A DNA stretch of 64,000 bases. It comes from Mucilaginibacter sp. PAMC 26640 (GTDB taxonomy: Bacteria; Bacteroidota; Bacteroidia; Sphingobacteriales; Sphingobacteriaceae). Of the stretch, positions 10,674 through 38,526 are shown piece by piece. Within the stretch, counting starts at the first letter, position 1; the number at the start of each line of letters is the position of its first letter. The notes under the pieces were generated by a model. It worked only from the letters and a program-made list of their open reading frames with translations. It did not search any database and was not told where the DNA came from. A program made the position numbers and the translations under genes. The DNA is taken from positions 4,092,001 through 4,156,000 of the forward strand of contig CP014773.1 in NCBI GenBank assembly GCA_001596135.1, given 5' to 3'.

Positions 10674-10681
10674 TATCTTTG
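10674..10681 (+). promoter_or_regulatory. -7 box of the SRP RNA gene
   Basis: TATCTTTG fits the Bacteroidota TAnnTTTG consensus and ends 4-5 bases before the predicted 5' end of the SRP RNA. No clear -33 element was seen. Confidence 0.65.
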
Positions 10682-10684
10682 CGC

Positions 10685-10783
10685 CGGGGTAAGTCTTTTA
10701 CGGCCAGCTCCTCTTGAACTCCCCCAGGGTGGGAACACAGCAAGGGTAGAGAGTTGAGCGGCGCGATAAAAGTAGCTTACCCT
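10685..10783 (+). ncRNA. ffs: Signal recognition particle RNA, small bacterial type (4.5S)
   Basis: The ends GGGTAAG (10687-10693) and CTTACCC (10776-10782) pair to close one long hairpin of about 98 nucleotides. The apex holds CCCCCAGG, then GTG-GGAA-CAC (a GGAA tetraloop), then AGCAAGGG, which is the conserved Ffh-binding asymmetric loop of SRP domain IV. A TATCTTTG box precedes it and a T-rich tract follows. The RNA works with Ffh and FtsY to target membrane proteins. A 68-codon open frame across it is spurious. Confidence 0.93.
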
Positions 10784-10958
10784 TTTTTATTTTCCTTTTT
10801 TCCAAAATTCAACTTTTCCTGATCTAAGAAACCATCATGCAGAAAATTTAAATCTGGATGAAATTGTTAATACCCTTGCAATCGTTATAGCTAGCTCGAA
10901 ATTATTAAGACTATATTATAGATTTTAGAAAGACTTCGTCAAATTTCGTTATAGTCGA

Positions 10959-25838: not shown

Positions 25839-26435
25839 ATGTTTGAGCAGATATCTACTGAAAAAGAGCTTCTTTTGAAGGTTGCGCATGGAAATGAGCA
25901 TGCTTTTAGCGAGCTTTTTAGCGAATATCATCAATTATTAGCGTCGCATATTTTCCGAATTACAGAGTCGGTGGAGCTGGCTGAAGAAATTGTGCAGGAT
26001 GCCTTTCTAAAAATATGGTTAAACCGGGAAGCACTTACCAACGTACAAAATTTCAGGGCTTACCTTTTCGCAATATCTAAAAATCACGCGCTTAACTGCC
26101 TGCGGAAACTGGCTAAAGAACGCAGCCATCAAAGGTCTATTGAAGCAAATGCTGTAATGACGCCAACAGCCCATGATGGTGGCTTAGATGGCTATTATGA
26201 GCTGTTAGATCAGGCGATAGATCATTTACCGCCGCAACAGCAAAAAGTTTACTTGCTTAGCCGACATAAAAGGTTAAAATACGATGAAATAGCTAATCAA
26301 TTGGGCCTTTCACGCGAAACAGTTAAGAAATACCTGCAATCATCCACGCTATCGATCACTAATTTCGTGCAAGCCCACAACGATGTGGCAACGCTGGTGA
26401 TTGGTATATCTTTGTCGCTTACACTTTTATACTAG
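25839..26435 (+). CDS. FecI-type ECF sigma factor
   Basis: ECF sigma factor of 198 residues of the kind that works with FecR and a SusC-type TonB-dependent transducer. Region 2: EIVQDAFLKIWLNREALTNV and FRAYLFAISKNHALN; region 4: HKRLKYDEIANQLGLSRETV followed by VKKYL. The C-terminal end (TLVIGISLSLTLLY) is hydrophobic, as often in this group. Its expected partner fecR is not adjacent: an arsenic operon of about 3 kb lies between, after which fecR, susC and susD follow on the same strand. Pairing with that fecR is inference. Confidence 0.93.
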   Translation: MFEQISTEKELLLKVAHGNEHAFSELFSEYHQLLASHIFRITESVELAEEIVQDAFLKIWLNREALTNVQNFRAYLFAISKNHALNCLRKLAKERSHQRSIEANAVMTPTAHDGGLDGYYELLDQAIDHLPPQQQKVYLLSRHKRLKYDEIANQLGLSRETVKKYLQSSTLSITNFVQAHNDVATLVIGISLSLTLLY

Positions 26436-26499
26436 CATTTACATGCTCCATTCATCCTTATTGAAAAAAAATATACATAAAATTTTGAAGGTTCCAATA

Positions 26500-26520
26500 T
26501 CAATCGTAATATTGCAATAA
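26500..26520 (+). promoter_or_regulatory. ArsR operator candidate 1
   Basis: TCAATCG-TA-ATATTGCAATAA contains the perfect palindrome TATTGCAATA (26510-26519) just upstream of the arsR ATG at 26524. A near-identical 21-mer precedes the next gene. Its position would let ArsR repress its own operon. Confidence 0.65.
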
Positions 26521-26523
26521 ATA

Positions 26524-26853
26524 ATGGGCTTAACAAAAACCGAAATATTTACAGATGAGCAAAATAAATTAGCAGTAATGCTAAAAGCTATTGCTCATCC
26601 TGCTCGCATTGCCATTTTACAGGAGATCATCAAGTCTAATACTTGTATCTGTGGCGATTTGGTAGGTGAACTTGGCCTGGCGCAGCCAACGATTTCGCAG
26701 CATTTGAAAGAACTTAAAAATGCAGGTCTCATCCAGGGAACGATAGAAGGCGTTAGCGTTTGCTATTGTATTAATCCGCCGGTTTGGAATGAGCTAAAAG
26801 AACATGTGGGAGGCTTTTTTGCGGCATTTAATGTTAAAACCAACTGTTGCTAA
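26524..26853 (+). CDS. arsR: ArsR/SmtB family arsenic-responsive repressor
   Basis: Winged-helix repressor of 109 residues that releases DNA when it binds As(III). The metalloid-binding CxC is in SNTCICGDLVGEL near the recognition helix; the helix itself is LAQPTISQHLKELKNAGLIQ. A CC pair ends the protein. It heads a five-gene arsenic operon. The same palindromic sequence lies before this gene and before the following one, fitting autoregulation. Confidence 0.95.
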   Translation: MGLTKTEIFTDEQNKLAVMLKAIAHPARIAILQEIIKSNTCICGDLVGELGLAQPTISQHLKELKNAGLIQGTIEGVSVCYCINPPVWNELKEHVGGFFAAFNVKTNCC

Positions 26854-26868
26854 AAAAAATTGCTCAAA

Positions 26869-26889
26869 TCAATCGCCATATTGCAATAA
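26869..26889 (+). promoter_or_regulatory. ArsR operator candidate 2
   Basis: TCAATCG-CC-ATATTGCAATAA differs from candidate 1 in two bases and keeps the palindrome TATTGCAATA (26879-26888). It lies between arsR and the DUF6428 gene, 19 bases before the latter's ATG, so it may control a second internal promoter. Confidence 0.62.
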
Positions 26890-26907
26890 TATAATTATAA
26901 AAAAATT

Positions 26908-27477
26908 ATGGAAAATAGTGAAGCAGTTACCTGGAACATTTTTAAAGATACCCTTTTGCTGTATCCTGATCTCGAACTGCAATTCCAATATGGAAAAGGC
27001 AAATTGGTTGATGCAGCTTATCATATTACAGAGATTAAACAAGCACCTGTCACATCGGTAGATTGTGGCGGCATAATGAATGCCTGGACGGAAATTATTG
27101 TACAGTTATGGGTACCTGAAGGCGAAGAGCAAAGCCGATCGATGAAAGTAACGAAGGCATTGTCGATTATCAACATCGTAGAAAAAATGCTGCCGCTTAA
27201 CCCAAACGGATTGGTGAAAATAGAATTCGGCAATGCGGATTTTGATACACGACAAATGTTTCCGTATGAAATGATCGCTCACGACGATACATTAACTATA
27301 AATCTTCGCCCCGATGCAGTACAATGTAAGGCACAATCACGTGGCGGCAGTTGCGGCACTAATGATAAAGGAGAGGAATGCTGTACCCCTGCCGCAACCG
27401 AAAAACCAAAAATACAACTGATAAACCTTGCTGCAACTGCCGAGGCTTGCTGCACCCCTGGCGGTGGTTGCTGTTAA
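26908..27477 (+). CDS. DUF6428 family protein of arsenic operons, with Cys-rich tail
   Basis: A 189-residue protein of the DUF6428 type, found almost only next to arsR, arsC and ACR3 in Bacteroidota. The first 145 residues look like a globular alpha/beta domain with YEMIAHDDTLTINLRPD. The C-terminal 45 residues carry Cys pairs and singles in CGTNDKGEECCTP and ACCTPGGGCC, spaced to bind a soft metalloid. Function is not established; an As(III)-binding chaperone or sensor role is inference. It starts 54 bases after arsR, with a second operator candidate in between. Confidence 0.87.
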   Translation: MENSEAVTWNIFKDTLLLYPDLELQFQYGKGKLVDAAYHITEIKQAPVTSVDCGGIMNAWTEIIVQLWVPEGEEQSRSMKVTKALSIINIVEKMLPLNPNGLVKIEFGNADFDTRQMFPYEMIAHDDTLTINLRPDAVQCKAQSRGGSCGTNDKGEECCTPAATEKPKIQLINLAATAEACCTPGGGCC

Positions 27478-27488
27478 ATCGTTAATAT

Positions 27489-27914
27489 ATGCGCATCCAT
27501 AACGCCCTACCCTATAAAGAAATGGTCGTAGCATTGCTGAAGGCTGAAAATTTGCCGGTGGCAGATTTGCCATATATGCTGGACAACTTTTTTGTAGCTA
27601 TACAAAACGATGAAGTGATAGGTGTTGTAGGTTTGGAGATATACAATGATTGTGGATTACTCCGGTCCTTTGCGGTACATCCCGGTTATAGAGGATTAGG
27701 AATTGGAAGTAACTTGTTGGCACGACTTGAAAATTTAGGCAAACTAAAAACGCTTTCAGTATTATACCTTCTCACTGAAACTGCAGTGTCTTACTTTGAG
27801 CAAAAGAATTATATAAAAACTACACGTGAAAATGTTCCTCCAGAAATTCTGCGATCGCCGCAATTCAGTCACGTTTGCCCCTTGTCGGCAGTTGCTATGA
27901 AAAAAACATTATGA
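27489..27914 (+). CDS. arsN2: ArsN2-type GNAT acetyltransferase of the arsenic operon
   Basis: GNAT fold protein of 141 residues. The acetyl-CoA loop is AVHPGYRGLGIGSNLL, and the C-terminal VPPEILRSPQFSHVCPLSA with a final M.K is the mark of the ArsN2 group found in arsenic operons. The substrate may be an organoarsenical or a thiol; for this member it is not known. Its TGA stop overlaps the arsC start (ATGA). Confidence 0.86.
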   Translation: MRIHNALPYKEMVVALLKAENLPVADLPYMLDNFFVAIQNDEVIGVVGLEIYNDCGLLRSFAVHPGYRGLGIGSNLLARLENLGKLKTLSVLYLLTETAVSYFEQKNYIKTTRENVPPEILRSPQFSHVCPLSAVAMKKTL

Positions 27915-28333
27915 GCAAAAAAAACATATTAGTATTGTGCACAGGCAATAGTTGCCGCAGCCAACTAGCAGAAGGTTACCTGCGTTACTTTGCAGGTGAT
28001 AAAGCCAACATTTACAGTGCCGGTATTGAAACTCACGGAGTAAACCCAAAAGCCGTTCAGGTTATGGCTGAAGATCATATAGACATCTCCGGGCATACCT
28101 CCAATCATGTGGATGAATACCTGGCCATTCCTTTTGACCTGGTGATCACCGTTTGCGATAATGCCAACGAGGCCTGTCCCTATTTTCCTGGCAAGGTAGT
28201 ACGCTTTCATCACAATTTTCCTGATCCGGCTAAAGCAATTGGTTCACCGGAGGAGGTGATAAACGAGTTCCGCAGGGTTAGGGATTTGATCAAATTTTAT
28301 GCGGCCGACTTTGTAAGCAAGCAATTAGCATAA
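27911..28333 (+). CDS. arsC: Arsenate reductase, low-molecular-weight phosphatase type
   Basis: Reduces arsenate to arsenite using thioredoxin; 140 residues. The catalytic P-loop CTGNSCRSQLAEGYL (CX5R) starts at about Cys9; the two other redox cysteines are in TVCDNANEACPYFPG. This is the thioredoxin-coupled class, not the glutaredoxin (E. coli ArsC) class. ATG at 27911, overlapping arsN2 by four bases. Feeds arsenite to the ACR3 exporter encoded next. Confidence 0.95.
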   Translation: MSKKNILVLCTGNSCRSQLAEGYLRYFAGDKANIYSAGIETHGVNPKAVQVMAEDHIDISGHTSNHVDEYLAIPFDLVITVCDNANEACPYFPGKVVRFHHNFPDPAKAIGSPEEVINEFRRVRDLIKFYAADFVSKQLA

Positions 28334-28381
28334 CTATTAGTGTGTCGTTAAAATAAAAAGTCAATTTTCTATAGAAAGAAC

Positions 28382-29467
28382 ATGTCTGCAAATACTTGCG
28401 CCCCGATAGCCGAACGAAAAAAACTGAGCTTTTTAGATAGGTACCTTACTTTATGGATATTCCTTGCAATGATTATTGGTGTATCCGTAGGTTACTTTGC
28501 ACCCTCATCTTCAACATTCATCGATTCTTTTTCCAGCGGGACAACTAATATCCCATTAGCATTTGGTTTGATACTCATGATGTATCCGCCATTAGCGAAA
28601 GTTAAATACGAAAACATGGGTAAAGTATTTAAGGATACCAAGGTCTTGAGTGCGTCGCTTGTCCTCAACTGGATCGTTGGGCCTACACTCATGTTTGTAT
28701 TGGCTATTACCTTGTTGCGTGATCACCCTGCATACATGGTCGGCCTGATCCTGATTGGATTGGCGCGGTGTATCGCAATGGTAGTGGTATGGAACGAACT
28801 TGCAGAAGGCAACAGGGAATATGCGGCGGGCCTAATAGCATTGAACAGCATTTTCCAGGTTTTACTATATAGCGTATACGCGTATTTATTTATCACTGTG
28901 CTGCCACCACTGTTTGGAATGAGCGGCTTGGCAGTGAATATTACTATAGGCGAGATTGCCAAGAGTGTCGGCATTTACCTTGGTGTCCCATTTCTGGCCG
29001 GAGTTGTCAGTCGTTATGCTTTAATACATTTAAAAGGCGAAGAATGGTTCCAAACCAAATTCATTCCTTTTATTTCCCCAATCACTTTAATTGCGCTGCT
29101 TTTCACGATCATCGTGATGTTTAGCTTAAAAGGCACCCTGATCGTTCAGATTCCATTCGATGTATTTCGTATTGCCATTCCTTTAGTCATCTACTTCACC
29201 ATCATGTTTGTATTGAGTTTTATCATAGGGAAATATTTCGGTGCAGATTACTCCAGGACTACAGCAATTGCCTTCACGGCAACCGGCAATAATTTTGAAT
29301 TGGCAATTGCTGTGGCTATTGGAGTCTTCGGGATCAACTCAGGTGAGGCATTCGCAGGTGTCATCGGGCCCTTGGTTGAGGTACCCGCGTTGATTGCTTT
29401 AGTTAACCTGGCCTTTTACTTTCGTAAAAAATATTACAGCACTAAACCATCAGTCAACGCACAATAA
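28382..29467 (+). CDS. Arsenite efflux transporter, ACR3 family
   Basis: Inner-membrane arsenite exporter of 361 residues with ten hydrophobic helices. The conserved Cys needed for transport is in [18 protein letters not shown], the family motif [20 protein letters not shown] is in helix 9 and [16 protein letters not shown] in helix 10. Last gene of the arsenic operon, 48 bases after arsC. A 316-base gap with a strong palindrome separates it from fecR. Confidence 0.96.
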
Positions 29468-29660
29468 TCTAGCAGTGCTTTATCAGCATTGCTTTTAATT
29501 CTTCAAGCTATACTCAACCTTGCTTTCGTTTTTGCATTAAACAACTGTAGAACTTTGATTTTTTTTCTAATTGTCTGAAAATCAATGTTAAATACAGAAG
29601 GAAACGACCAGCCTATCGCTTTCCAAATAATTTAAAAAGTAAGGACTGCACAACTCTCGG

Positions 29661-29700
29661 GCTCCCAACCAAAAAATAATTTTATTTTTTGGTTGGGAGC
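29661..29700. repeat. Perfect 40-base inverted repeat between ACR3 gene and fecR
   Basis: GCTCCCAACCAAAAAATAA (29661-29679) is followed by TT and its exact reverse complement (29682-29700). It could be a bidirectional terminator for the arsenic operon or the scar of an insertion. The other bases of 29468-29783 are AT-rich with no gene. Confidence 0.75.
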
Positions 29701-29783
29701 TACCCCCTTTTTCAATCTATTCGGTGTCTTGTAAAAGAAGACCTCCAATTCTTCCGCCCTGCCAATACCTATTTAAAACATAC

Positions 29784-30986
29784 ATGAATACCACAAAGCA
29801 AAGGTTAACGTACCTTTTTAATTGCTACTATGCAAAAATCGCCACGCCTGCCGAGCGCGACGAACTTTTTGCTTTGATAGCGACGGAGTGTGTAAGCGAT
29901 GAGGAATTAGGGAGGATAATGCAGGAATGTTGGGTCAATCTTGAAATTGACAAATCTTTATTTAATACTGCTAAAAGTGACCAAATCTTAAAAACCATTT
30001 TAAATAGCGCCCAGCAAAAGTCAAAACAGATAAAAAATAATAGTTCAATTATTTTATGGACAAAATTGGCAGCAGCGGCTGTAGTCATGTTTTTTTTAAG
30101 CGTTGGTGTTTACCAGCTTCTCTTTACAAAAACAGTTGAACATCATTATGCCATAAAACCTGCCTCCCGCCCGCAGCATGACGCACTGCCCGGTAGTAAT
30201 AAAGCTGTGTTAACGCTTACCAACGGGAAAACAATTGTGCTGGATAATGCGCAAAATGGTACGCTGGCGAAACAGGGCGAAACTGTTGTAAATAAAACAA
30301 ATGATGGCCAGCTAGTTTACAACGCTTCTATTGCAGGAAAGGCAGATGAGCCGGTTGCTATTAATACGATAACAACACCGCGCGGAGGCCAGTATCAGAT
30401 CAAACTACCGGATGGCACCCAGGTTTGGCTCAATTCAGCCTCGTCCCTTAAATTCCCAACTCGTTTTAGTGGAGACTCCCGCAATGTGGAAATAACTGGT
30501 GAAGCATATTTTGAGGTTTTTAAAAATCCACTAATGCCATTTAAGGTTAAGACAAGCCGGGCCGAAATTGAGGTATTGGGTACCCATTTTAACATTATGG
30601 ATTATACCGATGAAAGTGTTATGAAAACCACTTTACTGGAAGGTGCTGTGAACGTGATAACCGGAACGTCTTCAAAAAAGCTAAAGCCAGGGCAGCAGGC
30701 GCAAATAAAAACCGGCGGACAAACAAAGGTAGTGGACGACGTGGATGTTGACGATGAAACAGCCTGGAAAAACGGCATCTTTCAGTTTAACGACGCAGGG
30801 GTTGACAAAATTTTGCGCCAGGCGTCACGCTGGTATGATGTGGATGTTGTTTACAAAGGCAAAGTTCCAGACAGGGAGTTCACTGGGCGTATCTCCAGAA
30901 ATGTAAAGGCATCAGAATTATTAAACATGTTAAAGTACACGGGGATAGATTTAAAAATTGAAGGAAAAAATATCATCGTATTATAG
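29784..30986 (+). CDS. FecR-type anti-sigma factor
   Basis: Single-pass membrane regulator of 400 residues. About 85 cytoplasmic residues (RLTYLFNCYYAKIATPAERDEL) precede a membrane helix (WTKLAAAAVVMFFLSVGVYQ), then the periplasmic FecR domain with TTPRGGQYQIKLPDGTQVWL, NSASSLKFPTRF and TGEAYFEV, and a C-terminal DUF4974-like part (RISRNVKASELLNMLKYTG). It binds the sigma factor and reads the TonB-dependent transducer SusC. ATG at 29784 chosen over a GTG at 29724. Its sigma gene is 3.3 kb upstream beyond the arsenic operon. Confidence 0.95.
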   Translation: MNTTKQRLTYLFNCYYAKIATPAERDELFALIATECVSDEELGRIMQECWVNLEIDKSLFNTAKSDQILKTILNSAQQKSKQIKNNSSIILWTKLAAAAVVMFFLSVGVYQLLFTKTVEHHYAIKPASRPQHDALPGSNKAVLTLTNGKTIVLDNAQNGTLAKQGETVVNKTNDGQLVYNASIAGKADEPVAINTITTPRGGQYQIKLPDGTQVWLNSASSLKFPTRFSGDSRNVEITGEAYFEVFKNPLMPFKVKTSRAEIEVLGTHFNIMDYTDESVMKTTLLEGAVNVITGTSSKKLKPGQQAQIKTGGQTKVVDDVDVDDETAWKNGIFQFNDAGVDKILRQASRWYDVDVVYKGKVPDREFTGRISRNVKASELLNMLKYTGIDLKIEGKNIIVL

Positions 30987-31133
30987 AGAGCCAAAAGAAC
31001 ATCACTATACAATAATTAATTTCACCTAAAAAACACCACATGATGAGAATGATACGAAGACCAAGTTAGCCCGCAAGGCGAACCCGGTTGTCCCTACTAT
31101 TTAGTAAAGGCGCATCGAAAGAGCATAAAAAAA

Positions 31134-31162
31134 CCGGGAAGTGTTTCGACCCACTTTCCCGG
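31134..31162 (+). promoter_or_regulatory. Hairpin in the fecR-susC leader
   Basis: CCGGGAAGTG and CACTTTCCCGG pair with one bulged T around an 8-base loop, preceded by seven A. On the plus strand no T-run follows, so it is not a simple terminator for susC; on the minus strand it would be one. A nine-codon frame MMRMIRRPS (31039-31068) lies just upstream. A leader-attenuation or processing role for susC expression is possible. Confidence 0.5.
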
Positions 31163-31236
31163 CTATGTATCTGGGTTCCCCATCCATTGCAATTGACGAA
31201 TTGAAACTTTTTGTTTAACCCAAACTCAACAAACTT

Positions 31237-34200
31237 ATGAATTTTAATTCTAAGGCTGCGCCCTTCGCGTGGCCTAAAATTTCCAAAATCCTATTGGTTA
31301 TGAAACTCACTGCTATTTTAATAATCGCAGCTATTACCAATGTACTTGCAGCCAAAACTTACAGCCAGGTTGTGTCTATAAAGGAGAAGAACACCTCCGT
31401 TCAGAAGGTACTGAAAGCAATAGAAAAACAAACCGGATATCATTTTTTATATGACAAACGGGATGTATCGAAAGCAAATGCCATCAATATCGACGTGTCT
31501 AACGTTAGTATTACTGATGCACTTGATAAAGCTTTTCAGGATCAGCCGCTTACCTACAAAATTTTCCAGGAAACTATTGTAGTTAAAAAGAAAGAAACTG
31601 GAAATACCGCTAATGCTATTGCTGCATTTGAAGTCAGTGGTACAGTATCTGATGCAAAAGGAACCTTACCAGGCGTGAATGTCAAATTAAAAGGAACCAC
31701 TATAGGGGTAAGTACCGATGTTAACGGTAAATATAAACTAAGCCTTCCGGATGGTAATGGCACTCTTGTTTTTAGCTTTATAGGCTATACTACTCAGGAA
31801 ATCCCTGTAGGCAACCGCCAAACGGTGGATGTATTGTTGGCTGAATCGCCCAAATCACTTAGTGAAGTTGTGGTGGTAGGCTACGGTACGCAAAAACGAG
31901 CGGATCTTACCGGTTCCGTTGGGAGTGTAAGTTCCAAACAACTGCAGGAAAGGCCGCAAACTAACCTGGAGCAAGAACTAGCGGGAAAAATTGCCGGTGT
32001 AAACGTTTCACAAAGCTCGGGAGAGCCGGGTGGTGATACCAAAGTACGCATCCGTGGGTACAGTTCCATCAACTCCAATACCGACCCGCTTTATGTTGTA
32101 GATGGTGTAATTTGGCCACAGGGTGGTAATACGATTAACCCTAATGATGTAGCGAGTATCGATGTATTAAAAGATGCATCGTCTACCGCAATTTACGGTA
32201 CCAGGGGTACAAATGGTGTAATTTTAATTACCACCAAAAGGGGATCGCAAAACAAGGTAAGTACCGTAAGTTACGACAGCTATGTTAGCGTAAGCCGAAT
32301 GGCTAAAGAAATTCCTGTTCTTAATGCCAAACAGTTTTTAGATCTGGAAGATAAAGCCTATGCAAACATTCAGAAATACGACCCGGTGGGCTGGGCAGCT
32401 GGCAATTATGTAAGCAAAAACCCAAAAACAATTCGCACAGCGCTTATAGGTAAGCTGTTCGATGCTAACCTGAACCCTTTGTATGATGTAGATTGGCAAA
32501 AAGCTACTACCCGTACGGCTTACAGCAACAATCACAATCTTTCGGTTACCGGAGGGTCTGACCATATCAACTATGGCTTGTTTCTTAACTATGCCGATGA
32601 CCAGGGTATTATTCTAAATAGTAGTTTAAGACGGTACAATGCCCGTTTAACCGTTGATGACCAGATTAAACCATGGTTAAAAATAGGTACAACCATCAAC
32701 TACAACTCTCAGGATCAACAATTGGGTAATTACGGAACCGGTGGAAATAACATACCACGTACACTCATCGAAATGCCGCAATTTATTCCCATCAAGTATC
32801 CTGATGGCACTTATGGTAAAAGAACTGATTACCCTAACCTTGAAGGCGGTGACAACCCGGTTGCACAGGCTACCGAGATACAGCAATTGCGCAGATTGCG
32901 TTTATTTAGTGGAAACGGTTATGCTAATATCACGTTTTTTAAGGGGCTCGATTTTAAATCTGTAATTGGTGTAACGCGGGCTTCAAACTTCTACCCGTAT
33001 TCGCAAAGCGGATTAGTAGGCGGCCCAACAGCTGATCAGTCTTACAGTAATGCCGGTATAAGTGAAGACAATAACACTTTTTGGCAATGGCAAAATTACC
33101 TTACCTATAACACTAAGCTTAATGAGAAAAATTCATTAAACGTTGTTGTAGGTTCCGAGCGTTCTAATTATCAGCAATTAAGTTTAGGCGCATCTACGCG
33201 AAACCTTTCTGACAACTTTTACCAATATTATAACTTGGGAGCAGGGTCAATTCCAGGCCTGCCATCATCAAACTTTACAGCGTATCAGATTCAGTCCTAT
33301 TTTGGACGTGTAGTTTATAATTACAACGAACGATACCTGTTAACAGCTACGGGTCGTATTGACGGTTCATCCAGATTCGGTTCTGATAAAAAGTTTGGAT
33401 TCTTCCCTTCAGCAGCATTTGCCTGGCGTGCATCGCAGGAAGAATTCCTGAAAGACAATAAAACAATTTCTGATCTGAAACTGAGGGCAAGCTATGGACT
33501 TACCGGTAACTCGGAAATTGGCAACTACCCGTCGCTTGCCAGCATAAATACAACTAATTACGTATTTAACGGTGCACAGGCTATAGGAACAACACAAACG
33601 TCAATTGGTAACCCGGGTCTCGGCTGGGAAAAAACAGCAGAGTATGATCTTGGAATCTCTTTCGGTTTGTTCAATAACCGCATTACTTTAGAGGCCGACG
33701 CATATCTGAAGAAAACGCAGGCATTGTTACTTAATGCCCCCTTACCGCAAACCAGTGGCTTTAGCAGCGTGTTTAAAAACATTGGTAAATTGGAGAACAG
33801 GGGTCTTGAATTTACGATCAATACGATCAACATTAAGAACCAAAATTTCTCCTGGTCAAGCAATTTCAACATTTCGTTCCTGAGCAATAAAGTTTTGGCA
33901 CTTGGCTCATCTAACGATGATATTTTCCTTGACCCGGTATTTTTATCCCAATTCAACCTGGTTCGCGTAGGCTTACCGGCAGGTAGTTTTTACGGGTACA
34001 AAGTTTTAGGCACCTGGGGCACGGCTGAAGCCACGCAAGCGGCAAGTTACGGATTGCTTCCTGGCGACCTGAAAATTCAGGATACCAATGGTGATGGTCG
34101 GGTTACATCTGCTGATAAAGTAGTTTTAGGAAAATCCATTCCGACTGGATATGGCACCTTTACCAATAATTTTGCTTACAAAAACTTTGATTTAGGAGTA

Positions 34201-34644
34201 GAGTTGCAGTTTAATTATGGTAACCAGATCATGAACCTTACACAGCACTCTGCACAGGATCGTACGGGACAAGCCAATAGTTATACTACTGTTTTGAACG
34301 CCTGGACACCAACCAATCAAAATACCAACATTGCTGAAACGAGACCAGCGTATGTTCGCTACCAAACAGAAATTTATTCTACAAAAGTAGAGAACGGTAA
34401 TTTTATACGCGGCCGTGCGGTAACTTTGGGTTACAACTTTGCCCCTACCCTGGTATCTAAATTGAAGCTGACACGGTTGAGATTGTACGCACAGGCACAA
34501 AATCTGTTTGTTATTACTAAATACTCTGGTTATGATCCTGAAGTATCTACTTATAACGGATCGAGCAACTTTGCACAAAACATACAGTTTTTTGATTATC
34601 CAAAACCAAGAGTGTTTTTGATTGGGGTAAATGCAAGTTTTTAA
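31237..34644 (+). CDS. SusC/RagA family TonB-linked outer-membrane transducer with STN domain
   Basis: Outer-membrane importer of 1135 residues for glycan pieces, with SusD as lid. Order of parts: signal sequence (about residues 15-45), STN signalling domain (about 50-115, VQKVLKAIEKQTGYHFLYDK), CarboxypepD_reg-like domain (about 130-200, SGTVSDAKGTLPGVNVKLKG), TonB box SEVVVVGYGTQKR, plug (about 215-330) and a 22-strand barrel. The STN domain fits signalling to the FecR encoded just upstream. Its last strand ends in VFLIGVNASF, the usual outer-membrane insertion end. Followed closely by susD. Confidence 0.96.
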   Translation: MNFNSKAAPFAWPKISKILLVMKLTAILIIAAITNVLAAKTYSQVVSIKEKNTSVQKVLKAIEKQTGYHFLYDKRDVSKANAINIDVSNVSITDALDKAFQDQPLTYKIFQETIVVKKKETGNTANAIAAFEVSGTVSDAKGTLPGVNVKLKGTTIGVSTDVNGKYKLSLPDGNGTLVFSFIGYTTQEIPVGNRQTVDVLLAESPKSLSEVVVVGYGTQKRADLTGSVGSVSSKQLQERPQTNLEQELAGKIAGVNVSQSSGEPGGDTKVRIRGYSSINSNTDPLYVVDGVIWPQGGNTINPNDVASIDVLKDASSTAIYGTRGTNGVILITTKRGSQNKVSTVSYDSYVSVSRMAKEIPVLNAKQFLDLEDKAYANIQKYDPVGWAAGNYVSKNPKTIRTALIGKLFDANLNPLYDVDWQKATTRTAYSNNHNLSVTGGSDHINYGLFLNYADDQGIILNSSLRRYNARLTVDDQIKPWLKIGTTINYNSQDQQLGNYGTGGNNIPRTLIEMPQFIPIKYPDGTYGKRTDYPNLEGGDNPVAQATEIQQLRRLRLFSGNGYANITFFKGLDFKSVIGVTRASNFYPYSQSGLVGGPTADQSYSNAGISEDNNTFWQWQNYLTYNTKLNEKNSLNVVVGSERSNYQQLSLGASTRNLSDNFYQYYNLGAGSIPGLPSSNFTAYQIQSYFGRVVYNYNERYLLTATGRIDGSSRFGSDKKFGFFPSAAFAWRASQEEFLKDNKTISDLKLRASYGLTGNSEIGNYPSLASINTTNYVFNGAQAIGTTQTSIGNPGLGWEKTAEYDLGISFGLFNNRITLEADAYLKKTQALLLNAPLPQTSGFSSVFKNIGKLENRGLEFTINTINIKNQNFSWSSNFNISFLSNKVLALGSSNDDIFLDPVFLSQFNLVRVGLPAGSFYGYKVLGTWGTAEATQAASYGLLPGDLKIQDTNGDGRVTSADKVVLGKSIPTGYGTFTNNFAYKNFDLGVELQFNYGNQIMNLTQHSAQDRTGQANSYTTVLNAWTPTNQNTNIAETRPAYVRYQTEIYSTKVENGNFIRGRAVTLGYNFAPTLVSKLKLTRLRLYAQAQNLFVITKYSGYDPEVSTYNGSSNFAQNIQFFDYPKPRVFLIGVNASF

Positions 34645-34666
34645 TTAAATGCTAATAGCTATTATT

Positions 34667-36163
34667 ATGAAATTTAACTTAAAAAAATACAAAATAGGTT
34701 TGTTATTGATCCTCACTGTTGCTGTTAGCAGCTGTAAAAAATATCTGGATGAAGACAATAAGAGCAACTTCGTAAAGAACACATATTTTCAGAATCCTTC
34801 GCAGGCGCGATCTTTTGTGAATGGTATTTACACGTCTCTTTACTTCTTCCAAAACGGTGATGCCTACGGTGAAAGCCCATTCATCACTATGGAATTATTT
34901 GCCGGCCATGCAACTTCATTGGGCCAAAGTGTTAATAATGGTAACGTTATAAATCAACGTACAGATGCCGTTAATCCCGGTTTTGAAACTGTTTGGCGTG
35001 GCAGCTACAACGCTATCGCCAATGCAAACCTGGCTATTGAGCAAATTCCAAACGTACCTTTAATAACTGAAGCGCAAAAGAACCAGCTGTTAGGCGAAGT
35101 TTACTTCTTAAGAGCTTTCTTTTACTACCACTTGGTGCGTTTGTATGGAGATGTTCCACTGATCACTAAAACCGTTGGTGTGGATAGCCCGGATCTTTAT
35201 CCATCCCGCTCGGCTACAACAGCCGTTTATGACTTGATCCTGAGCGATCTGCTTGCAGCACAAGCCTCGGGGTTACCGGCAACAGATCAAACCGGAAAGG
35301 TGTCTATTGGAGCCGTAAACACATTGCTGGCCAGCGTGTACTTAACTACCGCAGGTTTTCCGTTAAATAAAACCGAAAACTATGCAAAGGCCGCCGCTAC
35401 AGCAGAACTGGTGTTACCATCTTACACCCTATTTGATAAGTACGATTATCTGCATGATAATGCGCACAAAAATCAGGGTGAATTGATTTTTCAAAGTCAG
35501 TACCTTGTAGGTGTTAGAGATAATGCGATCCCACAACTTATATTACCTTTTAACCTTCCGGTAGGTGCTTATGGTGATCACCTGGGCGCTATGATCCCTA
35601 CTGATGCATTTTTCAATAGCTACGAAGCCAACGATCTGCGTACTCAGGATCGTCAGTTTTATTTCTCCAGCTATCCGCAGTACGGCAATCCTGCCGTAAC
35701 AGTTACTTTCGGAGTACACGCATTATACAAATATTTTCATGTTGAAAGTGCTGCCAGCAGCGGTATCAGCGATGAAAACTGGACTTTCTTACGCCTTCCG
35801 GAAGCCATGCTGATTTATGCAGAAGCCTCTAATGAAGTGGGCGGTCCAACCGATAAGGCTTATCAGCAGTTAAATGCAATCAGGGCACGGGCAAAGCTGC
35901 CTGCCTTAAGCGGTTTAACCAAAGACCAGTTTAGAACAGCTATCTGGAAAGAGCGCTATCACGAACTGGCCTATGAAGATAAAGCGTACTTTGATATACA
36001 GCGTACCCACAAAATTTATGATGTGAGGAATAACACCTTCGGCGATGCAACCTCTACTGCAAACGAACAGGGAGTTATAATGAAGGATCAGTATTACCTT
36101 TGGCCCGTTCCGCAGCGTGAAATCAATACTAACATCAATCTGAAACAAAACACTGGTTGGTAA
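34667..36163 (+). CDS. SusD/RagB family outer-membrane lipoprotein
   Basis: Surface glycan-binding lid of the SusC importer, 498 residues. Signal peptide with lipobox VAVSSCKKYLDEDN; the N-terminal TPR-like region carries YFLRAFFYYHLVRLYGDVPL, and the C-terminal part has WTFLRLPEAMLIYAEASNE and KERYHELAYEDKAYFDIQR. The ATG at 34667 is preferred to 34649, since only it gives a standard signal peptide. Ends in a strong terminator. Cotranscribed with susC. Confidence 0.95.
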   Translation: MKFNLKKYKIGLLLILTVAVSSCKKYLDEDNKSNFVKNTYFQNPSQARSFVNGIYTSLYFFQNGDAYGESPFITMELFAGHATSLGQSVNNGNVINQRTDAVNPGFETVWRGSYNAIANANLAIEQIPNVPLITEAQKNQLLGEVYFLRAFFYYHLVRLYGDVPLITKTVGVDSPDLYPSRSATTAVYDLILSDLLAAQASGLPATDQTGKVSIGAVNTLLASVYLTTAGFPLNKTENYAKAAATAELVLPSYTLFDKYDYLHDNAHKNQGELIFQSQYLVGVRDNAIPQLILPFNLPVGAYGDHLGAMIPTDAFFNSYEANDLRTQDRQFYFSSYPQYGNPAVTVTFGVHALYKYFHVESAASSGISDENWTFLRLPEAMLIYAEASNEVGGPTDKAYQQLNAIRARAKLPALSGLTKDQFRTAIWKERYHELAYEDKAYFDIQRTHKIYDVRNNTFGDATSTANEQGVIMKDQYYLWPVPQREINTNINLKQNTGW

Positions 36164-36243: not shown

Positions 36244-38526
36244 ATGAAAAAAAGGCTACTCCTCATTCCTGTTCTTTTATTTACCGCTAATATTTTTGCG
36301 CAAAACGTTACGAAAGTAGCTGACCCCGTTGAGTGGATCAACCCACTTATGGGTACCCAGTCCAAATATGATCTGAGCAATGGCAACACCTATCCTGCAA
36401 TTGCTTTGCCGTGGGGTATGAATTTCTGGACACCGCAAACCGGTAAAATGGGCGACGGCTGGCAGTATACCTATGATGCTTACAAGATCAACGGCTTTAA
36501 GCAAACCCACCAGCCATCCCCATGGATGAATGATTATGGTCAGTTTGCTATTATGCCGGTTACCGGCAAATTACGGGTTACTCAAAACCAACGTCAAAGC
36601 TGGTTTTCACATAAAACCGAAATAGCCAAGCCGTACTACTACAGCGTTTATCTGGCAGATCATGACGTAACTACCGAAATAACCCCTACCGAACGTGCAG
36701 CGCAGTTTCGTTTCACCTACCCTAAATCTGACAGCTCTTTTATTGTTATAGACGCGTTTGACAAAGGTTCTTATATCAAAATCATTCGTGGTGAAAATAA
36801 AATTGTGGGCTATTCAACGAAGTATGCCCGCGGGCCCCTCAAAAATTTTAAAAACTACTTTGTAATTTATGTTGATAAGCCAATTGCTATGGCGCAGGTT
36901 TACAGCGATTCTGTTTTGAATGATGGCAATGAATTAACAGCGAGGCACGTAAGCGCTGTGTTGGGCTTTAAAACGGCCAAAGGCGAGAAAGTGAATTTAA
37001 GAGTAGCATCATCATTCATCAGTATTGAGCAGGCGGAGATCAGTTTACAGCGGGAAATTGGTAAAAACAGCTTCGATGTTACCAAGGCCAATGCAAAAGC
37101 TACGTGGAACAAAACACTTAGCCGCTTACAGGTTGAAGGCGGAAGTACCGACCAGGTACGTACCTTTTATTCCTGCCTTTACCGCATGTTATTCTTTCCA
37201 AACAAGATGTATGAGATAGATGCGAAAGGACAACCCGTACATTACAGCGCACAAAATGGCAGTATTCAACCCGGTTACAAATTTGCAGGTACAGGATTTT
37301 GGGATACTTTTCGTGCTTTATACCCTTTCCTTGACTTGGTTTATCCATCTATCAACAAAGAGATGCAGGCCGGCTTAGTCAATGATTATAAAGAAGGCGG
37401 CTGGTTGCCCGAATGGAGCAGCCCGGGCTATTCAGACGTAATGGTGGGCAATAACTCTGCTTCGGTAGTATCAGGCGCTTATTTAAAAGGTGGCCGTGGT
37501 TACGATATCAACACCTTGTACGCCGCTTTGATCCATGGTGCCAACAATGATGGCCCTGCGGCAACAGGCCGCGATGGTGTAGATTATTACAACAAACTTG
37601 GCTACGTACCTTATGATGTTAAGATCAACGAAAACGCAGCCCGCACATTGGAGTATGCCTATGATGATTTTACCATTTATAAATTGGGTAAAGCATTAGG
37701 CAGACCGGCATCTGAAACTGATATCTATAAAAAACGCAGCATGAATTACAAAAACCTGTTTGATCCGCAAACTGGTTTGATGCGCGGAAAGAATAAAGAC
37801 GGCCAGTTTCAAAGCCCTTTCAATCCACTAAAATGGGGTGATGCTTTTACCGAAGGTAACAGCTGGCATTACACCTGGAGTGTTTTTCACGATATCGACG
37901 GCTTAGTTAATTTAATGGGTGGTAAACAAAAATTCGTAACGAAGCTGGATTCAGTTTGGACTATGCCACCAACATTCGACGATAGCTATTATGGTGAGGT
38001 GATCCACGAGATCCGTGAGATGCAGATTGCGGGTATGGGCCAGTATGCCCACGGAAATCAGCCAATCCAGCACATGCCCTATCTGTACAATTACGCAGGT
38101 GAGCCCTGGAAAACACAATTGCATGTACGCGATGTAATGAATAAACTATATAAAGCTACACCAGATGGTTATTGCGGCGACGAAGATAACGGGCAAACAT
38201 CCGCCTGGTATGTTTTTTCGGCAATGGGCTTCTATCCGGTAACGCCGGCCAGCGATCAATACGTTTTAGGTGCACCGCTTTTCCAAAAAATAACACTTAC
38301 ACTTGAGAATGGTAAAAAGGTTGTGATCAATGCGCCAAATAACAGTGCCGCTAATCGCTATGTTACCACACTAAAAGTAAATGGTAAACCTTACGATCTT
38401 AACTGGCTTAGCCACAAATCTTTATTACAAGGTGGTGTATTAAATTTCAATATGTCGGCAACGCCAAATAAAAGCCGTGGTATTAAAGCCGAAGATGCCC
38501 CATATTCTTTGTCAACTGAAAAATAG
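36244..38526 (+). CDS. GH92 family exo-alpha-mannosidase
   Basis: Exported glycoside hydrolase of 760 residues with a signal peptide (LLLIPVLLFTANIFAQ). GH92 enzymes are calcium-dependent alpha-mannosidases (most often alpha-1,2). Recognisable blocks are DPVEWINPLMGTQS at the mature start, FWDTFRALYPFL, the region FTEGNSWHYTWSVFHD, and the C-terminal GDEDNGQTSAWYVFSAMGFY containing catalytic acidic residues. It has its own unit after the susCD terminator, and points to alpha-mannan or high-mannose glycans as the substrate of the locus. Confidence 0.95.
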   Translation: MKKRLLLIPVLLFTANIFAQNVTKVADPVEWINPLMGTQSKYDLSNGNTYPAIALPWGMNFWTPQTGKMGDGWQYTYDAYKINGFKQTHQPSPWMNDYGQFAIMPVTGKLRVTQNQRQSWFSHKTEIAKPYYYSVYLADHDVTTEITPTERAAQFRFTYPKSDSSFIVIDAFDKGSYIKIIRGENKIVGYSTKYARGPLKNFKNYFVIYVDKPIAMAQVYSDSVLNDGNELTARHVSAVLGFKTAKGEKVNLRVASSFISIEQAEISLQREIGKNSFDVTKANAKATWNKTLSRLQVEGGSTDQVRTFYSCLYRMLFFPNKMYEIDAKGQPVHYSAQNGSIQPGYKFAGTGFWDTFRALYPFLDLVYPSINKEMQAGLVNDYKEGGWLPEWSSPGYSDVMVGNNSASVVSGAYLKGGRGYDINTLYAALIHGANNDGPAATGRDGVDYYNKLGYVPYDVKINENAARTLEYAYDDFTIYKLGKALGRPASETDIYKKRSMNYKNLFDPQTGLMRGKNKDGQFQSPFNPLKWGDAFTEGNSWHYTWSVFHDIDGLVNLMGGKQKFVTKLDSVWTMPPTFDDSYYGEVIHEIREMQIAGMGQYAHGNQPIQHMPYLYNYAGEPWKTQLHVRDVMNKLYKATPDGYCGDEDNGQTSAWYVFSAMGFYPVTPASDQYVLGAPLFQKITLTLENGKKVVINAPNNSAANRYVTTLKVNGKPYDLNWLSHKSLLQGGVLNFNMSATPNKSRGIKAEDAPYSLSTEK

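Follow-up and report, generated by a model that had tools for sequence, protein, structure and literature searches.

Does an arsenic resistance operon that separates a sigma factor gene from its anti-sigma partner place sugar uptake under arsenic control? The question is raised by a stretch of 64,000 nucleotides from Mucilaginibacter sp. PAMC 26640 (contig CP014773.1, positions 4,092,001 to 4,156,000), here called the window, whose own numbering is used throughout. On its plus strand are found, in this order, ruvB, a gene for an extracytoplasmic function (ECF) sigma factor, arsR, a DUF6428 gene, arsN2, arsC, acr3, fecR, susC, susD and a gene of glycoside hydrolase family 92 (GH92). An initial inspection, the sequence-only reading, had placed five ars genes on one strand between a FecI-type sigma gene and fecR, and this order and orientation are verified here. 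It had proposed that read-through ties arsenic exposure to the sugar regulator or, alternatively, that the insertion is neutral, and the anatomy of the locus appears to fit the second proposal better. Very probably, the locus carries a lineage-specific and self-regulated ars insertion that lies beside the putative promoter of fecR-susCD-GH92 and is nearly neutral for signalling from arsenic to sugar uptake.

An ars insertion in an otherwise continuous locus

The sequence-only reading took an unbroken run of sigma gene, fecR, susC and susD to be the normal state and suggested a comparison with close relatives, which finds exactly this arrangement. There are 11 relatives from the first ortholog search (sigma identity of at least 56%), and all 11 have the uninterrupted run without ars genes, with a neighbourhood of major facilitator superfamily (MFS) gene, glycosyltransferase gene and ruvB retained upstream in 3/11. 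The genus relatives include named species, and the empty site is present in M. terrigena, M. rigui, M. aurantiaciroseus, M. pankratovii and M. glaciei, in 5/5 cases with MFS-glycosyltransferase-ruvB upstream. The run is also uninterrupted at 29/29 other loci of the genus that carry the conserved linker described below. These three sets overlap and are not additive. Of 31 further genomes with the motif, the last set covers 29; G170 and G020 are left out, and G020 is covered in the first ortholog set.

All 29 of these loci are free of ars genes, the sigma gene ends 0-18 nucleotides 5' of the linker motif, and fecR lies 3' of it; in the window, the sigma stop codon and the motif are 3265 nucleotides apart. 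The fecR alignment begins 43-83 nucleotides past the motif, and the first ATG of a long open reading frame (ORF) is found 42-72 nucleotides past it in 28/29 loci. The exception is L214, where an ATG in frame directly adjoins the motif, with the fecR alignment beginning 64 nucleotides past the motif. The gene ruvB is present within the 1.5-kb flank in 16 of the 29. Relatives do have ars operons, located elsewhere. Among 29 other acr3 loci, out of 46 other acr3 matches, 28 have no sigma gene or fecR within 1.5-kb flanks, and the single match is weak (E 3e-4, 25% identity). The interruption is thus unusual, as 0/29 comparable loci of the genus carry ars genes between sigma and fecR, and the same order was not encountered among the relatives examined. 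Judged by gene order, the insertion is derived, and the ars operon arrived between a true sigma/fecR pair.

The pairing itself is well supported by several observations. The sigma protein scores 73.6 bits against the superfamily model TIGR02937 (cut-off 42.9), and 123.7 bits against the FecI-type Bacteroidota model TIGR02985, below the cut-off of 126.4. Each of its 11 orthologs, at 56-74% identity, is encoded immediately 5' of fecR (L018 is omitted from the sigma alignment). At 29/29 other loci of the genus the sigma and fecR orthologs are side by side, as befits a FecR-paired sigma factor, and no other sigma gene appeared that would fit this fecR better. The fecR product contains the domains PF04773 (FecR, 68.6 bits) and PF16344 (FecR_C, 56.5 bits), both above cut-off. 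An ATG at 29784 is preferred as its start over a GTG at 29724, because the orthologs align from 29784 and the GTG belongs to the GTGTC of the conserved linker.

There are 10 other fecR genes in this genome, with a sigma gene directly upstream in seven and a divergent one in another. A metallophosphoesterase gene separates sigma from fecR at L147:840-2339, and an oppositely oriented Fic gene does so at L144:4134-5252. Separation of sigma and fecR is therefore not confined to the ars locus, and the unusual feature is a whole resistance operon in the gap.

The right breakpoint is sharp: 29700 is the last base of an inverted repeat and 29701 the first of the conserved linker. The suggestion that this palindrome marks the right side of the insert therefore holds, as does its description as perfect, since the arms are 100% complementary. 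Its 101-nucleotide context folds at z = -4.8. The window has 19 listed inverted repeats, two of them fully complementary, and this one is the longer of the two. The sequence at the motif is ATACCCCC in 29/29 other loci versus CTACCCCC in the window, and a chance match could shift the true right junction by 1-2 bases. The left end is located only to the last ~8 sigma codons, which are variable among orthologs and may have been changed by the insertion, or to the bases just past the sigma stop codon.

There is no transposase or integrase among the identified genes of the insert, all of which are ars genes, and the sole 6-mer common to 26400-26460 and 29680-29720 is the AT-rich TTTTAT, although shorter target-site duplications are possible. 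Neither of the features (transposase or integrase, or target-site duplication) by which an insertion sequence, a transposon or an integron cassette would be recognised was thus found. A search for the palindrome elsewhere, as the sequence-only reading had recommended, finds that the 38-nucleotide core is unique in the genome even when up to 3 mismatches are allowed. Against 119 other genomes of the genus, positions 29468-29700 yield just two short matches (24 and 33 bases; E <= 0.001). We do not claim a mobile-element origin for the palindrome.

Control of the ars genes and of fecR-susCD

The inserted genes constitute an ars operon, with ArsR (NF033788) and TIGR00832 matches above cut-off and ArsC recognised by PF01451. 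There is only one acr3 match in this genome, and a DUF6428 gene is found near acr3 in 15/29 other acr3 loci (1.5-kb flanks). A candidate promoter in front of arsR resembles the Bacteroidota consensus TTTG / TAnnTTTG given in PMC7366714. The ArsR-type operator pattern has two matches in 64 kb at up to 3 mismatches (0.01 expected), both inside the insert, a post hoc count as the pattern was derived from those same two sites. Operator-like sequence is also located upstream of arsR or DUF6428 in the ars loci of relatives.

As to the source of the operon, its G+C content (0.41) is close to that of the window (0.42) and gives no foreign signal. The placement of this copy in an Acr3 tree of 29 of 30 loci (L076 left out, second copies excluded) has a support of 0.05. 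Acr3 is 91% identical to that of G010 and G015, with RuvB at 92%, and 72-88% identical to that of seven species with RuvB at 96-97%. This pattern hints at transfer, but not decisively.

The linker that follows the insert, TACCCCCTTTTT-N11-GTGTC in its strict form, is present in 32/149 genomes of the genus (this one included), once in each, with 0 control hits. The spacing is N11 in 29/29 other loci even though N11-15 was permitted, and the element is always located between sigma and fecR. The core can also be made out in Terrimonas and Chitinophaga. The linker alignment consists of chosen rows, and the G006 row is cut inside the motif. ECF promoters take the form of a -35-like block and a GTC -10 element with a fixed gap between them. 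The linker shares these sequence features, with both blocks a constant distance apart in front of the putative regulon, and looks like an ECF sigma-dependent promoter of fecR-susCD. A relaxed version of the pattern has 3 genome matches versus 4 for a reversed control, and therefore only the strict linker is informative. The word GTC-N1-3-TA, noticed by eye and thus post hoc, occurs in 6/10 other sigma-fecR gaps of this genome (1.7 expected). It occurs in 8/14 unrelated sigma-fecR gaps of relatives (3.4 expected; 5/1000 first-order Markov shuffles are equal or higher), where 3 of 17 loci were dropped, one for want of an ATG and two for want of a fecR match. That a GTC-type -10 word is shared in front of other fecR genes is suggestive only.

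Several points weigh against a self-contained insertion beside an intact promoter, and the linker may not be a promoter. Variants of it occur in 3/11 first orthologs (one base shorter in G026, altered ends in G021 and G019), and the strict form is absent in front of 10/10 other fecR genes of this genome. At -11.6 kcal/mol, the hairpin past acr3 is of moderate strength and might be leaky. In E. coli, according to PMC9249621, fecIR is one sigma70 transcript free of autoregulation, and FecI exerts its effect at the fecA promoter. For Bacteroides PUL24, PMC11501099 reports a probable sigma-dependent start ahead of susC, located within the 3' end of the anti-sigma gene. By analogy with PUL24, susC could have an additional promoter of its own.

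The most probable history is that a complete ars operon landed between the ECF sigma gene and the putative promoter of fecR-susCD-GH92. If the sigma factor does drive fecR-susCD from the linker, then the sugar unit would keep its own control, and the ars genes would be driven by an ArsR-controlled promoter with transcription stopping at the hairpin past acr3. As a likely side effect, transcription from the sigma promoter would proceed into ars rather than fecR. Of this history, the unbroken gene order of relatives, the right breakpoint and the intact linker are observed directly. Because the linker is untouched by the insertion, fecR-susCD most likely retains its control. Thus, the insertion probably adds arsenic resistance without placing sugar uptake under arsenic control.

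The read-through proposed by the sequence-only reading would have the ars transcript continue into fecR, such that arsenite raises the anti-sigma factor, or fecR-susCD as a whole, and alters sugar uptake. All genes do lie on the same strand, 316 nucleotides separate acr3 from the ATG of fecR, the 9-bp terminator-like hairpin could leak, and no U-tract immediately follows the 19-bp hairpin. However, the first of these hairpins begins 3 nucleotides past acr3 and is followed by the second, strong one, the promoter-like linker is preserved ahead of fecR, and the surroundings of fecR contain no ArsR-type operator even with 3 mismatches allowed. Given the two hairpins, the linker and the lack of an operator near fecR, arsenic-driven read-through into fecR is unsupported by the anatomy, and we regard this coupling as improbable. 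There is a better, if still rather doubtful, case for a rewired sigma circuit, in which the sigma promoter feeds ars instead of fecR, so that the putative sigma-dependent promoter is the sole supply of anti-sigma factor and a basal input reaches ars. The interval between sigma and arsR has no strong structure (z = 0.2), which would permit read-through from sigma into ars, and the hairpins past acr3 would help to cut off fecR. The sigma-fecR gap of close relatives is short (~90-120 nucleotides), and the single fecIR transcript of E. coli noted above is in keeping with such a starting state. On the other hand, co-transcription of sigma and fecR in relatives is an assumption of this proposal, and 3/10 other fecR genes of this genome are also without a sigma gene directly upstream.

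Two further explanations concern the insertion itself. The arrangement might be ancestral, with the ars genes lost by relatives, and the direction of change does rest on counting relatives. But ars genes are present at 0/29 loci of the genus and at neither of the outgroup loci (Terrimonas and Chitinophaga), and the relatives' own ars operons sit elsewhere, which makes this the most remote of the explanations considered. It is also very improbable that the arrangement is an assembly artefact or chimera. The species is represented by one strain in the comparison, but the locus is situated inside a 5.6-Mb contig, the break coincides with a conserved element, and the insert resembles the window in G+C content.

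Resistance operons move, and the arsenic aspect of the nearly neutral insertion that we favour is modest, as the operon landed where its neighbours are spared. The useful by-product is the linker, a very constant element that a sugar-locus ECF sigma factor may recognise. The insert is a natural replacement of the sequence upstream of it, and the linker is easily testable. Should the rewired circuit prove true, the strain would be a natural experiment on uncoupled sigma and anti-sigma factors, and a sugar-locus ECF promoter would have its upstream boundary delimited to about one base.

Features of the locus and its surroundings

The coordinates of the features are given in the table. The pair of susC and susD together with a glycan enzyme (TIGR04056, PF07980/PF14322, PF07971) identifies the downstream genes as a SusCD polysaccharide utilisation locus.

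Table. Features of the interrupted sigma-fecR locus, in window positions
Feature	Position	Strand	Basis and remarks
FecI-type ECF sigma gene	25839..26435	+	198 aa; TIGR02937 above cut-off, TIGR02985 below; ortholog synteny with fecR
Inserted segment	26436..29700	+	~3.25-3.28 kb; empty sites in orthologs; linker conserved again from 29701
Putative ars promoter TTTG-N19-TAATATTG	26484..26514	+	Bacteroidota -33/-7 type, from sequence
ArsR-type operator 1	26499..26520	+	overlaps ars promoter; pattern match
arsR	26524..26853	+	NF033788 above cut-off
ArsR-type operator 2	26868..26889	+	ahead of DUF6428; pattern match
DUF6428 protein of ars operons	26908..27477	+	PF20001 above cut-off
arsN2 N-acetyltransferase	27489..27914	+	NF040501 above cut-off
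arsC, thioredoxin-type arsenate reductase	27911..28333	+	PF01451 above cut-off; TIGR02691 158.4 bits versus cut-off 174.3
acr3 arsenite efflux transporter	28382..29467	+	TIGR00832 above cut-off
Intrinsic-terminator-like hairpin 3' of acr3	29471..29493	+	9 pairs, then TTTAATTCTT; -11.6 kcal/mol, z -3.9
40-nt inverted repeat	29661..29700		19-nt arms, 2-nt spacer; right end of insert
Conserved linker TACCCCCTTTTT-N11-GTGTC	29701..29728	+	putative ECF sigma-dependent promoter of fecR-susCD
fecR anti-sigma gene	29784..30986	+	PF04773, PF16344 above cut-offs; start from orthologs
susC	31237..34644	+	TIGR04056 above cut-off
susD	34649..36163	+	PF07980 and PF14322 above cut-off
GH92 alpha-mannosidase-type hydrolase	36244..38526	+	PF07971, TIGR01180

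The gap between fecR and susC contains a candidate cis-antisense RNA on the minus strand (31127-31236) that is reminiscent of DonS, an RNA described in PMC7366714. On that strand there is a hairpin followed by a T-run at 31127-31162, and a conserved block that reads TTTG-N19-TAA(G/C)TTTC is found in 10/13 aligned loci with a mean identity of 76%; the window's own -7 element is AAAGTTTC. There is no Rfam match at 31127-31236, and a model of the RNA has one strong match in this genome, the locus itself, and another at E 0.89. Terminator-like hairpins opposed to the downstream gene occur in 4/9 fecR-susC gaps of this genome (L145, L148, L149 and L152; the gene downstream of L145 is unconfirmed as susC), where 0.06 are expected and the sense strand has 0/9. 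The nine gaps are that of the window, whose hairpin missed the filter, and 8 of 10 others, two being left out at a length of 10 nucleotides. These counts suggest that there may be antisense RNAs at several fecR-susC loci of this genome.

The same gap has a conserved micro-ORF on the plus strand (31040-31069), which in the window reads MMRMIRRPS. It comprises 9-10 codons at a similar position in 15/16 loci, begins with MM(K/E)EI in 10/15 and has an in-frame extra codon in two. A leader peptide is one possible role. Elsewhere in the window, a Bacteroidales small signal recognition particle RNA (RF04183) is found at 10680-10786 on the plus strand.

Comparison with known systems

A search of titles and abstract openings retrieved no description of an ars operon between sigma and fecR, nor of a promoter of the linker kind. 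According to PMC7366714, a motif is known for EcfO of B. fragilis, and none was known for the ECF sigma factors of B. thetaiotaomicron as of 2020.

The inserted operon is similar to the ars operon of M. gossypii P3, which has the order arsR-mrarsU-arsN-arsC-hp-acr3-mrme1-mrme2 (PMC10652896). Both have arsR, an arsN-type acetyltransferase gene, arsC and acr3, and the second gene here, DUF6428, is perhaps the ArsU of M. gossypii P3. In contrast to that operon, there are no metallophosphoesterase genes past acr3, arsC and acr3 are not separated by another gene, and the site is a sugar locus. The relative L055, whose Acr3 is 90% identical, does have two metallophosphoesterase genes past acr3, as in M. 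gossypii P3. An ars cluster of Mucilaginibacter robiniae (NZ_CP051683.1) also has DUF6428, GNAT, arsC and acr3 together, with 73% identity over 74% of the insert, but it is plasmid-borne.

The other split sigma/fecR pairs of this genome, L147 and L144, differ in that single genes intervene rather than a resistance operon. The host locus is like other FecI/FecR-regulated SusCD polysaccharide utilisation loci of Bacteroidota in that it has sigma, fecR with FecR_C, susC, susD and a glycoside hydrolase gene on one strand, and it differs from them in that arsenic genes (3.3 kb) separate sigma from fecR, an arrangement found in this genome only.

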